DNA of 63,203 nucleotides, from the IMG/VR virus record IMGVR_UViG_3300043436_001856, positions 1 to 63,203 of that record, one strand, 5' to 3'. The notes beneath the pieces are model-generated. The model was given only the letters and a program-made list of their open reading frames with translations, ran no database searches and had not been told where the DNA came from. The stretch's first letter is position 1. Every line of letters starts with the position of its first letter. The stretch comes from a virus. Shown one piece after another: positions 20,924 through 54,421 of the stretch. The translations under genes were made by a program, and so were the position numbers.

Positions 20924-21647
20924 AATATTTAACTAAAGCTAATTTTTTACATTGTGTTTCAATAAAGTCTTCATTTTTTATGTCTTTACTGAATTTTTTT
21001 GCGTCCATAGGGTGCATTTTATTCATTCTTTGTAAATTGTCTTCACGTACAACCTTAATCGTGTATAAAATTTCTTCAGGCGTAAACTTCAACTTCTTTT
21101 GTTTTAATAGGATTGCAAATACTTTGTCCGCATTGAATACCCTGTTAAAGTCCTGACGTTTACCATTTAGCCAATCGTTCTTTGTAAATTCAACAATTTC
21201 GTCGTCTGTCAATTGCGGAACAGGCGGTTCAGGTGGCGGCGGAATATTTTTACGAACTTCGTTTGCTTTGGCTTTATAGGCATTCATTATTTGGGATATG
21301 TATTTAGGTGAAAACTTTTCAAAATGGTCTGTATTACATTCAAAACGACCTTGTACTGCCATTTTAAACGCAATCCTGAATTCATTTATTGTAAAATGCG
21401 GATAAGTTGTACGAATATAGTCTTCAATAATATCCAATTCCATTTTGTCAGGCAAACGTGTTAACCCAATCAAAGTAAAAATATAAGCCAACGTACTTTT
21501 TAAATTATGCACGTCAACAACTGCTAATTTTTCGCCCTTAAAAGCTTCAACAATTGGTAAATCTTCTTTAGCTATTAACCCAATCGGAAAGTCCTTCCAT
21601 TCTTTTGCGACTTGCGGCGGTTGGGTCAGTATTTTTTGTATTTCCAT
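20904..21647 (-). CDS. Replication-associated protein, possible helicase loader (247 aa)
   Basis: It begins MEIQKILTQP. Residues about 40-135 form a conserved helical domain (LAYIFTLIGLTRLPDK, FRIAFKMAVQGRFE, ISQIMNAYKAKANEV), followed by a proline-rich hinge (PPPPEPPVPQ) and a helical C-terminal part. The two-domain layout and place directly after the DUF4373-type gene recall helicase-loading or initiator partners. No Walker motif is present, so it is not an ATPase. It overlaps the upstream gene by 80 bases. Confidence 0.5.
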   Translation of the reverse strand: MEIQKILTQPPQVAKEWKDFPIGLIAKEDLPIVEAFKGEKLAVVDVHNLKSTLAYIFTLIGLTRLPDKMELDIIEDYIRTTYPHFTINEFRIAFKMAVQGRFECNTDHFEKFSPKYISQIMNAYKAKANEVRKNIPPPPEPPVPQLTDDEIVEFTKNDWLNGKRQDFNRVFNADKVFAILLKQKKLKFTPEEILYTIKVVREDNLQRMNKMHPMDAKKFSKDIKNEDFIETQCKKLALVKYFENLSN

Positions 21648-22272
21648 ATTTTATTCGGTTTTGTAACCACGTGTTAACGCGGCGTTTTACGTCAAAAAAC
21701 TTTTCTGATTCATAACGCAATTTACCACTTTTTGACGGTTCGCACCAATAGGCAATAAATTCTTCGTAAGATTCCGACAAGGTATTTTTGTAAGGTTCAA
21801 TTAAAATTAAAAAATTTGTTTGTGGGTCAACCGTAGGTTGAACAGTTATAATACTATTTACTTTACTTTCATTTACTTTACTTTTCTTTTCTTTATGGTC
21901 GTTACGAACACTTTTGTAATGCGTTACATTTTCCGCAATGTCTTGATTTTCACGCCATTGTGAAATTCTTTTAAGGTTTTTTTCTTTTTTTATCTTGTAC
22001 TTTTCACTAAAGTTTAGCAATTGTTTGTTGAAAGTTTCACCATTGTTTGATGAAATTATGTCAATACTTTCCATAAAGTTCCAACATTTATCAAGCTTTT
22101 TGCCAACCTTTAATTGCATTTTTAGCACGTCAGTATTAACAGGTTTTTCCTGTTTAGCTAATTTTTCAAGGATAGTATAAAACAATCCCAAACCCTCATA
22201 TCCGTATTTCATAAAAAGCAAAGCAACCTTTTCATCTTCAAACGCGTTGCTATCGTGCAAAAAATATTTCAT
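21568..22272 (-). CDS. DUF4373-type replication protein (234 aa)
   Basis: It begins MKYFLHDSNA. The first 95 or so residues (EKVALLFMKYGYEGLGLFYTILEKLA) match the N-terminal domain of phage replication proteins of the DUF4373/Lin1244 type, a winged-helix DNA-binding unit. A basic linker (EKNLKRISQWRENQ) and a C-terminal helical part follow. The start codon sits two bases after the U-tract of a conserved RNA structure, so translation or transcript extension is probably controlled there. Confidence 0.7.
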   Translation of the reverse strand: MKYFLHDSNAFEDEKVALLFMKYGYEGLGLFYTILEKLAKQEKPVNTDVLKMQLKVGKKLDKCWNFMESIDIISSNNGETFNKQLLNFSEKYKIKKEKNLKRISQWRENQDIAENVTHYKSVRNDHKEKKSKVNESKVNSIITVQPTVDPQTNFLILIEPYKNTLSESYEEFIAYWCEPSKSGKLRYESEKFFDVKRRVNTWLQNRIKYGNTKNTDPTAASRKRMEGLSDWVNS

Positions 22273-22273
22273 A

Positions 22274-22361
22274 TAAAAAAAGGGTCGCGGGACGCCGGGA
22301 AATGGTACTTCCCGAAAATCCTTTGACCCAATATATTCCTAATTGCGTTGTACCATAACGC
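22274..22361 (-). ncRNA. Two-hairpin leader RNA with complementary loops
   Basis: In the minus-strand transcript the first hairpin is GCGUU / AUGGUAC loop / AACGC (22361-22345). The second is a longer stem: GGGUC with GACCC, GGA with UCC, and CGGGAA with UUCCCG, closing a GUACCAU loop (22329-22282). Seven U follow. The two 7-nt loops are perfectly complementary and invariant in unit B, while one pair in the inner stem changes from G-C to C-G (22299/22311 versus 53921/53933). This supports a real RNA fold and a kissing interaction. It lies between the DnaA-like gene and a replication gene. Confidence 0.75.
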
Positions 22362-22367
22362 GTTTAT

Positions 22368-22799
22368 TTAATTCCTGTCTGCAAATATAATGCTTTTTTC
22401 AATTCTTTTTTCAAGGAATGCAATTTTATTTCTGAACCAATCCGCCGTTTCAATTAAATCCTTTGCCGAATTGATATTATACATAACCGTCGTATGGTCG
22501 CCAACCCCAATAAATTGTCGTATTTCGCTTAATGAAAGTTTGGTATGCTTACGTATTAAATACGCAGCCGCCTTCCTTGCGTCAACAATGTTTTTGGTTC
22601 GGCTTTTAATTGACATATTTGTATCAAAAATTTCCTCAACTAATAAAGCAATCTTTTTGGCTTCACTTGAAATTTCAGGGTCAATAATAACTTCGTCCTG
22701 TTTTATAAGGTTGTTTTCCTTCATTATATTATGCAGCGCCCTTAAACTTTGCCTGTGCATTTTATAAAAGTGAATCATTTCGCTTTGTAATTGTTGCAT
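22368..22799 (-). CDS. DnaA domain IV-like protein
   Basis: This 143-residue protein begins MQQLQSEMIH. Its C-terminal 85 or so residues match DnaA domain IV, the DnaA-box-binding helix-turn-helix: DARKAAAYLIRKHT, LSLSEIRQFIG, then the signature GVGDHTTVMYN near residue 100. It lacks the AAA+ ATPase domain. It could bind the phage origin, or compete with or recruit host DnaA. Its operon continues directly into the structured RNA and replication genes. Confidence 0.85.
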   Translation of the reverse strand: MQQLQSEMIHFYKMHRQSLRALHNIMKENNLIKQDEVIIDPEISSEAKKIALLVEEIFDTNMSIKSRTKNIVDARKAAAYLIRKHTKLSLSEIRQFIGVGDHTTVMYNINSAKDLIETADWFRNKIAFLEKRIEKSIIFADRN

Positions 22800-35880: not shown

Positions 35881-36495
35881 TTAATTTTTAGTGTTTAAAA
35901 TTGCGTTTCTATATTTGCTCAATCTTTCTTCCTTAATATCTTTGTTAGATACAAATTCAGAAAATCCGTTTGGCTTTTGAATTGGGTCTGCGCTTGGTGT
36001 ATTTGAAAGTGCTTCTATTAATTCAGCTACCTGTGCAAATCCTTGCTTAACTTTATTTTCTAATTCCAAAACTTTTAATTCAGCCGCTTCTTTAGCTTCA
36101 ACCAATTCAGCAAATTTTGCTTCAAATTGTTCTGCCATTTCAGCCAACTTTTTGTCTTCTTCTTTAGAAGCTTCAACTTCAGTGTCAACCACCGGTGTAA
36201 CTTCTTCAACTTTAGCTTCAATTTCGATAATGATACCGTTTTCGTCCAAAGTAATTTCTGTGCCGTCCATTAATTCGTGGTCGCCCGCCGGTGCATTTGT
36301 ACCGTCAGCCAACTTTACTGAACCGCCAATTTCTAAAGCTGAAATTTCAACCTTAGTACCGTCCATTAAAGAATATTCTGCCATTTCCACCTTAGTTTCT
36401 TCAACCATTGGTGCAACTTCAGCTTCAACTTCAACAGGCGCAACATTGTCTTCGAACAATGCCTTAATCTTTAAAATCGCTTCCTGTGCGTTCAT
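35881..36495 (-). CDS. Scaffold-like acidic protein with DGT repeats (unit B)
   Basis: The 204-residue counterpart of 4615-5223. The LMDGT and LADGT repeat region is kept, with PAGDHELMDG replacing PMGEHELMDG. The C-terminus RNAILNTKN is two residues longer. Coiled-coil residues are nearly unchanged. Confidence 0.6.
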   Translation of the reverse strand: MNAQEAILKIKALFEDNVAPVEVEAEVAPMVEETKVEMAEYSLMDGTKVEISALEIGGSVKLADGTNAPAGDHELMDGTEITLDENGIIIEIEAKVEEVTPVVDTEVEASKEEDKKLAEMAEQFEAKFAELVEAKEAAELKVLELENKVKQGFAQVAELIEALSNTPSADPIQKPNGFSEFVSNKDIKEERLSKYRNAILNTKN

Positions 36496-52399: not shown

Positions 52400-52545
52400 A
52401 CTTTTTGGTAAAATTCTTTTTTTAATTCGAGCCTGTTTTGCCTTGTTTGCACTTCAGGATAATTTGCATAAAAGTCGGTAAAATTATCGGTATAACAATA
52501 TTTTACAGTACCAAAGTGAGTATATTTAATTTGATAAGTTTTCAA
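52330..52545 (-). CDS. Small protein of unknown function (unit B, 71 aa)
   Basis: Counterpart of 20708-20923. The first 28 residues are kept (YCYTDNFTDFY), the rest varies (PEVQTRQNRLELKKE). It keeps the 70-base overlap with the nuclease gene. Confidence 0.5.
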   Translation of the reverse strand: MKTYQIKYTHFGTVKYCYTDNFTDFYANYPEVQTRQNRLELKKEFYQKVWTYQQTILQNGQKQTLNVSGTG

Positions 52546-53895: not shown

Positions 53896-53983
53896 ATAAA
53901 AAAGGGTCGCGGGACGCCGGCAAATGGTACTTGCCGAAAATCCGTTGACCCAATATATTCCTAACTGCGTTGTACCATAACGC
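53896..53983 (-). ncRNA. Two-hairpin leader RNA with complementary loops (unit B)
   Basis: First hairpin GCGUU / AUGGUAC / AACGC (53983-53967). Second hairpin GGGUC, GGA, CGGCAA / GUACCAU / UUGCCG, UCC, GACCC (53951-53904), then six U. The loops and outer stem match A. The inner stem is CGGCAA/UUGCCG instead of CGGGAA/UUCCCG, a compensated G-C to C-G swap. The unpaired AAC against AAA in the internal loop is the only other stem-region change. Confidence 0.75.
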
Positions 53984-53989
53984 TTTTAA

Positions 53990-54421
53990 TTATTTCCTGT
54001 CTGCAAATATAATGCTTTTTTCAATTCTTTTTTCAAGGAATGCAATTTTATTTCTGAACCAATCTGCGGTGTCAATTAAATCCTTTGCTGAATTGATATT
54101 GTACATTACTGTCGTATGATCGCCAACCCCAATGTATTGCCTTATTTCGCTTAATGACAAAGTCGTGTATTTTCTGATTAAATACGCAGCCGCCTTCCTT
54201 GCGTCAACAATATTTTTGGTTCGGCTTCTTACTGACATATTAACGTCAAAAATTTCCTCAACAATCAAAGATATTTTCTTTGCTTCATTTGACAATTCAG
54301 GGTCAATAATAACTTCTTCCTGTTTTATTAAATTGTTTGCCTTCATTATATTGTGCAACAGTCTTAAACTTTGTCTGTGCGACTTATAAAAGTCTAAAAT
54401 TTCGCTTTGTAATGTTTGCAT
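53990..54421 (-). CDS. DnaA domain IV-like protein (unit B)
   Basis: The 143-residue counterpart of 22368-22799. The signature GVGDHTTVMYN is identical, while the N-terminal 60 residues vary (MQTLQSEILD, FDVNMSVRSR). DNA-box preference should be the same. Confidence 0.85.
   Translation of the reverse strand: MQTLQSEILDFYKSHRQSLRLLHNIMKANNLIKQEEVIIDPELSNEAKKISLIVEEIFDVNMSVRSRTKNIVDARKAAAYLIRKYTTLSLSEIRQYIGVGDHTTVMYNINSAKDLIDTADWFRNKIAFLEKRIEKSIIFADRK

Follow-up and report, generated by a model that had tools for sequence, protein, structure and literature searches.

Introduction

Structured RNA that controls replication is well known in plasmids; to our knowledge, it has rarely been described at the head of the replication operons of lytic phages. 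In the IncI-alpha/IncB plasmids (ColIb-P9, pMU720), loop pairing activates the translation of repZ and an antisense RNA competes. The phage leader RNA analyzed here, with two hairpins (HP1 and HP2) and complementary loops, resembles these plasmids in placing an initiator under the putative control of leader loop pairing, and one class of its relatives (class 2 below) has a rep-coupled leader ORF similar to theirs, whereas the leader type found in the window (the whole 63,203-nt stretch of DNA analyzed) includes a terminator and lacks any clear leader ORF.

In plasmid pT181 the leader of the replication initiator gene repC combines a 5' sensing hairpin with an intrinsic terminator, and kissing controls termination (PMC4878617), a layout that the phage leader shares; the pT181 antisense RNA, however, complements its 5' hairpin, whereas here the complement is the terminator loop, antisense promoter boxes are almost entirely lacking, and a long antiterminator duplex was not noticed. 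In the guanidine-IV (mepA) riboswitch a kissing loop makes it harder for the terminator stem to close fully, and the linker becomes shorter as P2 grows (PMC11611296). Two hairpins, kissing loops and a terminator stem with poly-U are common to that riboswitch (PMC11611296) and the phage leader, which differs in having no known ligand, in loops that are free to change while they keep matching, and in heading replication operons of Bacteroidota phages; Rfam scans of the leader against the library as a whole were empty. An upstream loop also kisses an expression-platform hairpin in corrinoid riboswitches (L5-L13; PMC10653944), but these have a large aptamer and a cofactor, in the repressing example their kiss works in the direction opposite to the one we prefer, and Rfam scans of the leader were empty. 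Among phages, the CI RNA of P4 pairs with its own leader and terminates transcription of the replication genes (PMC4825925), but the processed CI RNA has two target sites and no kissing terminator loop, and P4 is temperate. The put RNA of HK022 is a cis-acting phage RNA that alters termination in early genes (PMC9378689), and differs from the leader in binding RNA polymerase directly and working on downstream terminators.

An earlier note on this DNA knew of no described family with such an arrangement, and the searches agree: Rfam 15 gave no match in the window or in 20 diverse loci and no credible sub-threshold match at the site, and open-licence papers contained related principles but no description of the element, and none in Bacteroidota phages. 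We file it as a kissing-loop attenuator without a known ligand or antisense RNA.

Results

Two copies of the leader in a tandem phage record

The source record consists of two related phage genomes head to tail, of ~31.3 and ~31.9 kb (positions 1-31280 and 31281-63203), which are ~81-94% identical by segment; single relatives of the phage are ~32 kb, and the tandem record is most likely an assembly that fused two co-occurring strains. The first 90 bases of the record are the same as its last 90. Longer genes lie essentially all on the minus strand and make up a siphophage-like set (portal, large terminase, tape measure, endolysin, exonuclease and ERF annealing protein). The window genes scanned included neither an integrase nor a repressor, from which the phage looks lytic. 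Features of the leader, which occurs in copies A and B, are collected in Table 1.

Table 1. Positions of the leader features and of related loci; coordinates are those of the window except for phage JQ
Feature	Position	Strand	Basis or remark
Source record IMGVR_UViG_3300043436_001856	63,203 nt		IMG/VR
DnaA domain IV (Bac_DnaA_C) gene, upstream of leader	22368..22799	-	Pfam 9.1e-15
Bacteroidota -7 promoter box TATATTTG	22382..22389	-	sequence; within 3' end of DnaA-domain-IV gene
HP1, 5-bp stem GCGUU/AACGC, 7-nt loop	22345..22361	-	sequence, fold; stem co-varies across A8
Loop 1, AUGGUAC	22350..22356	-	exact complement of loop 2
Linker HP1-HP2, 15 nt	22330..22344	-	reach ~96 Å vs ~90 Å coaxial length (coarse estimate)
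HP2, intrinsic-terminator-like hairpin	22282..22329	-	outer GGGUC/GACCC, middle GGAU, inner CGGGAA/UUCCCG
Loop 2 GUACCAU, apical hairpin CGGGAA[GUACCAU]UUCCCG	22302..22308	-	sequence, A8 alignment
U7 tract of terminator	22275..22281	-	sequence; U-tract in nearly all relatives
AU spacer, then rep AUG	AUG at 22272	-	sequence
Replication gene (rep), Lin1244_N (PF14297)	21568..22272	-	Pfam 3.2e-07; PHROG replication initiation protein 2e-09
Copy B -7 box TATATTTG	54004..54011	-	sequence
Copy B HP1	53967..53983 (loop 53978-53972)	-	sequence
Copy B HP2, then U6	53904..53951 (loop 53930-53924)	-	sequence
Tenacibaculum phage JQ (L423, MT002873.2; isolated; host T. geojense), similar leader	~35942-36090		

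On the minus strand (22361-22282) the loops are exact complements, as the earlier note had stated, and it was likewise right that both loops are the same in A and B while one inner-stem pair is G-C in A and C-G in B. Two of its distances required correction: the U-tract does precede the start of the replication gene but does not abut it, two bases (AU) lying between, and HP1 begins 6 nt, not seven, past the stop of the DnaA domain IV gene, a gene that is not kept upstream of the leader at other loci. Although the plus strand at the site also folds well (z -3.5), the transcript was assigned to the minus strand because the promoter, the U-tract and the gene direction fix the strand. The G+C-rich hairpin stands directly before the U-tract and between the promoter box and the gene, the arrangement of an intrinsic terminator or attenuator, and loop 2 lies ~30 nt 5' of the rep AUG. 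When the window was scanned for the complete pattern (box, HP1, a loop complement of at least 7 nt, and a hairpin plus T-run), of which shuffles yield 0-2 matches, copies A and B were recovered together with one match made of A/T only (52494-52543). A uORF is not claimed for the window copies, in which the only candidate is a TTG frame that ends on the rep ATG and that one extra T breaks in the relative L030.

Loop complementarity is maintained through paired changes

Taken alone, the window is weak evidence, because a 7-nt match between loosely defined loops is not rare in shuffled sequence; with loose hairpins it arose in 44 of 150 shuffles of site A (135 nt). Since a single site was unconvincing, relatives were collected from IMG/VR through the downstream gene, yielding 124 distinct upstream regions, ~70 of them with a two-hairpin leader. 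Across 23 independent leader types, the complement between a leader's own loops averaged 5.2 nt, compared with 2.76 nt across leaders, and complements of at least 6 nt were present in 13 of the 23 own pairs and in 6 of 506 cross pairs. None of 100,000 permutations of the loops, which were taken automatically from MFE folds, was as good. Two other statistics were dropped: a loose hairpin-pair statistic on single sequences did not separate real leaders from shuffles and was replaced by the cross-leader permutation and covariation, and a half-versus-half permutation was inflated by A/T runs, so that the loop-only version was relied on.

The ~70 leaders contain 16 different hairpin-hairpin loop pairs, every one complementary through paired changes, and a second class adds 11 looser pairs. 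In alignments A6, A7 and A8, the last of which takes in the window type, the kissing helix was paired at 97.6%, 86.6% and 100%, respectively; two-sided changes affected four pairs in A6, one in A7 and 5 of 7 in A8, and no one-sided changes were found in A6 or A8. The inner stem of HP2 was also 100% paired in A8, with two-sided changes at five of its six pairs. The lower A7 figure arises because MAFFT misplaced four rows (L192, L243, L253 and L256), whose own loops are perfect (GTTGTGAG/CTCACAAC and GTAGTGAG/CTCACTAC). Compensation in place is evident in close pairs, such as L038 (GTCGCAT/ATGCGAC) and L039 (GTCGTAT/ATACGAC), or L040 (GTCGTAT/ATACGAC) and L044 (GTCGGAT/ATCCGAC). The claim of a conserved two-hairpin RNA, to which loops changing without keeping their complementarity would have been fatal, thus held when it was confronted with the ~70 leaders, and their loops co-vary.

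A separate scan of IMG/VR for the terminator of one leader type (type I) alone, with loop positions left free, returned 69 contigs, of which 66 carried an exact 8-nt complement upstream and two (L400 and L403) a 7/8 match. An ordinary terminator with loop complementarity by chance would account for the single 7-nt match, which is common in shuffles, but is opposed by the permutation result, by two-sided changes unaccompanied by one-sided ones in A6 and A8, and by the 66 of 69 pattern matches that keep 8/8; we consider it extremely improbable. Complementary loops are also an inverted repeat in DNA, and the element is located in the replication region, as would be expected of the inverted repeats of a replication origin, which the earlier note had offered as one reading. 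Conserved U-G stem pairs (A6 columns 76-93 in 21 sequences; A7 columns 83-103 and 84-102 in 11/17 each) and the layout of promoter box and one-sided U-tract argue instead for RNA, leaving a DNA element very improbable.

Mapped onto the rep-gene tree, the 70 leaders require at least 23 loop switches. The rep genes of L310 and L311, like those of L192 and L203, are near-identical and their leader loop types are different. Since L310 and L311 combine near-identical rep genes with different leaders, some of the switches are exchanges of the whole leader, and the sequences of both pairs suggest that the leader is exchanged as a cassette.

The leader heads replication operons with different first genes

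In the type-I terminator scan, the next gene was MKYxLHD (Lin1244_N) in 40 contigs; other next genes were a second Lin1244_N branch, an HTH_36 initiator, a replisome organizer followed by a DnaB helicase gene, a small ORF, and an HNH endonuclease gene, after which one of the organizers usually came next. The organizer before the DnaB gene has relatives among the annotated replisome organizers of other phages. Because the first gene varies, the leader is a feature of the head of the operon and is not tied to one protein. In L354 and L409 the leader is separated from the replication gene by inserted HNH endonuclease genes.

The element is present on >100 distinct contigs. Close relatives of the rep protein are all but lacking in 395 Bacteroidota genomes, nine of which gave a match, eight of them a weak one; six weak matches to the type-I covariance model (R1) come from Bacteroidota genomes (L416-L421, E 2e-4 to 7e-4). 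The proteins of the window type had no match in 50,697 phage records, nor did searches of the phage database return one, whether they used DNA of the window, DNA of type I or the Lin1244 protein, and the isolated Tenacibaculum phage JQ was reached only through more distant organizers. In JQ the order is TATATTAG, HP1, terminator, replisome organizer and helicase gene, with a perfect 10-nt loop complement (AGCATCCTAC/GTAGGATGCT) that, taken alone, 8 of 500 shuffles equaled. By annotation, Flavobacterium phage 1/32 has no room for a leader, and the Firmicutes relatives L424-L427 have little or no gap before rep and hence no leader room.

Leader classes and a possible translational contribution

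Leaders of class 1 (the window type, type I, type J and others) consist of a -7 box, HP1 with a loop of 7-10 nt, the terminator hairpin and a U-tract, with 38-53 nt between the paired segments; types I and J carry an extra small middle hairpin. A -7 box no more than 45 nt 5' of loop 1 was found in 20 of 28 leader types against 1.5 expected, whereas an antisense -7 box occurred in 1 of 34 types and in none with a -33 element (consensus scan only). The U-tract, seen in nearly all relatives, is weak in L038. The leader of L142 has two nested complementary pairs, GTATGTTAT/ATAACATAC and AGCGACAAA/TTTGTCGCT, instead of one.

In class 2 (L055, L095, L141, L151-L154, L158 and L263; gaps of 51-70 nt) the 5' segment, loop 1, immediately precedes the start codon of a uORF of 31-44 codons. 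This uORF reads across the terminator hairpin to a stop codon at or next to the rep start, mostly with a 4-nt ATGA overlap. Because loop 1 is so close to the uORF start, loop pairing in this class may act on translation. In L048, L051, L059 and L152 the loop-1 sequence recurs within the last 15-25 nt, right up against the rep ATG. In L048 the repeat forms the loop of a third hairpin (HP3), and HP1 could thus have a competitor for the terminator loop.

A translational switch with a leader peptide, of the ColIb-P9 repY-repZ type, in which uORF translation and loop pairing together set rep translation, would make sense of these repeats and the third hairpin beside the rep ATG, and of the uORFs that end at or near it (14 of 34 types against 5.7 expected, concentrated in class 2). 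The window type, however, has no ATG uORF ending on the rep start and types I and J mostly have none, and the leader is kept where other genes separate it from rep, so that as a general account we regard this switch as rather improbable. Control at the level of transcription is favored because one and the same leader is found ahead of first genes that are not related to one another, as well as ahead of inserted HNH genes. Of the earlier note's 'attenuator or translational switch', the first part is matched by the attenuator-like layout of promoter box, HP1, terminator and replication operon, whereas a purely translational switch acting on one start codon is unlikely in general; in the uORF subclass translation may contribute.

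Discussion

The evidence points to the element being an RNA switch that turns transcription of the replication genes on or off. To the specific proposal that the leader RNA is a transcription attenuator of the phage replication operon, in which the kiss gives read-through, we assign an even chance. From the -7 box we infer that a Bacteroidota promoter of its own, just 5' of HP1, starts the transcript. Because HP2 plus the U-tract is an intrinsic terminator, the operon would be attenuated by default, with much of the transcription stopping before the replication genes and an RNA of ~100 nt being released. The HP1 loop pairs with the terminator loop, as the covariation shows, and the kiss presumably forms while the upper part of HP2 is emerging from the polymerase; since the linker is short, the kiss would then oppose the zipping up of the lower terminator stem, resulting in read-through. 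A factor that frees or captures the HP1 loop would tune read-through, candidate signals being the same loop on terminated leaders acting in trans, a ribosome on the class 2 uORF, or a protein. Inspection of type I by eye for an antiterminator pairing between the HP1 arm and the terminator arm gave only a weak, bulged 5-bp match.

The sign of the kiss was considered with a rod-and-string estimate that ignores bends. In this estimate the HP1-kiss-HP2 coaxial stack is mostly 81-98 Å long (up to 109 Å in some folds and 70 Å in L257), and the linker reaches 78-108 Å, or, in most of the types that possess a middle hairpin, 54-84 Å once it is formed. Given the coaxial length relative to the linker reach, the kiss and the complete terminator would strain each other; the leader has complementary loops and, on this coarse estimate, a tight linker geometry, and its kiss may compete with the full terminator stem as in the guanidine-IV riboswitch. 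The opposite sign, in which the kiss stabilizes HP2 and promotes termination and a kiss-breaking factor turns the operon on, has a precedent in the corrinoid riboswitch, where the L5-L13 kiss stabilizes P13 and promotes the terminator (PMC10653944), and in the uORF class pairing would mask the region around the uORF start. In the coarse geometry, the kiss, the middle hairpin and a complete terminator nevertheless fit together poorly, and we regard this sign as the less likely, if serious, possibility. Read-through was chosen because of the geometric strain and the guanidine-IV precedent, and on this analysis it would stand clearly, if not decisively, ahead of the opposite sign.

The candidate signal in trans can be extended to self-antisense copy control or immunity, in which terminated leaders act on nascent leaders and replication falls as copies rise. 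This would resemble control in pT181, ColE1 and P4, except that a single RNA carries both the sense and the antisense loop; because the two loops are joined in this way, capture in trans is attractive as a copy-number sensor. Replication genes lie downstream, an antisense promoter box is essentially absent, the 7-8 nt loops are fully paired, and loop types diversify and leaders swap between near-identical rep genes as specificity determinants do. On the other hand, pairing in cis should normally win, and the phage looks lytic, the scanned genes including no integrase or repressor; overall we judge self-antisense control unlikely. The corresponding protein-free dosage sensor, in which terminated leaders would accumulate with genome copies, capture nascent HP1 loops and close the replication operon, is a similarly tentative proposal.

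The leader is modular, and at the kissing site its sequence strictly obeys one rule only, that the loops match, a rule that allows a direct and cheap break-and-restore test of the loops. The similar leader in the isolated Tenacibaculum phage JQ, whose host is named, makes the system bench-testable, and the 16 interchangeable kissing pairs on related scaffolds constitute a natural library for RNA engineering. If the dosage-sensor reading, unlikely as we consider it, were true, the diversified loop types would define incompatibility or immunity groups among Bacteroidota phages.
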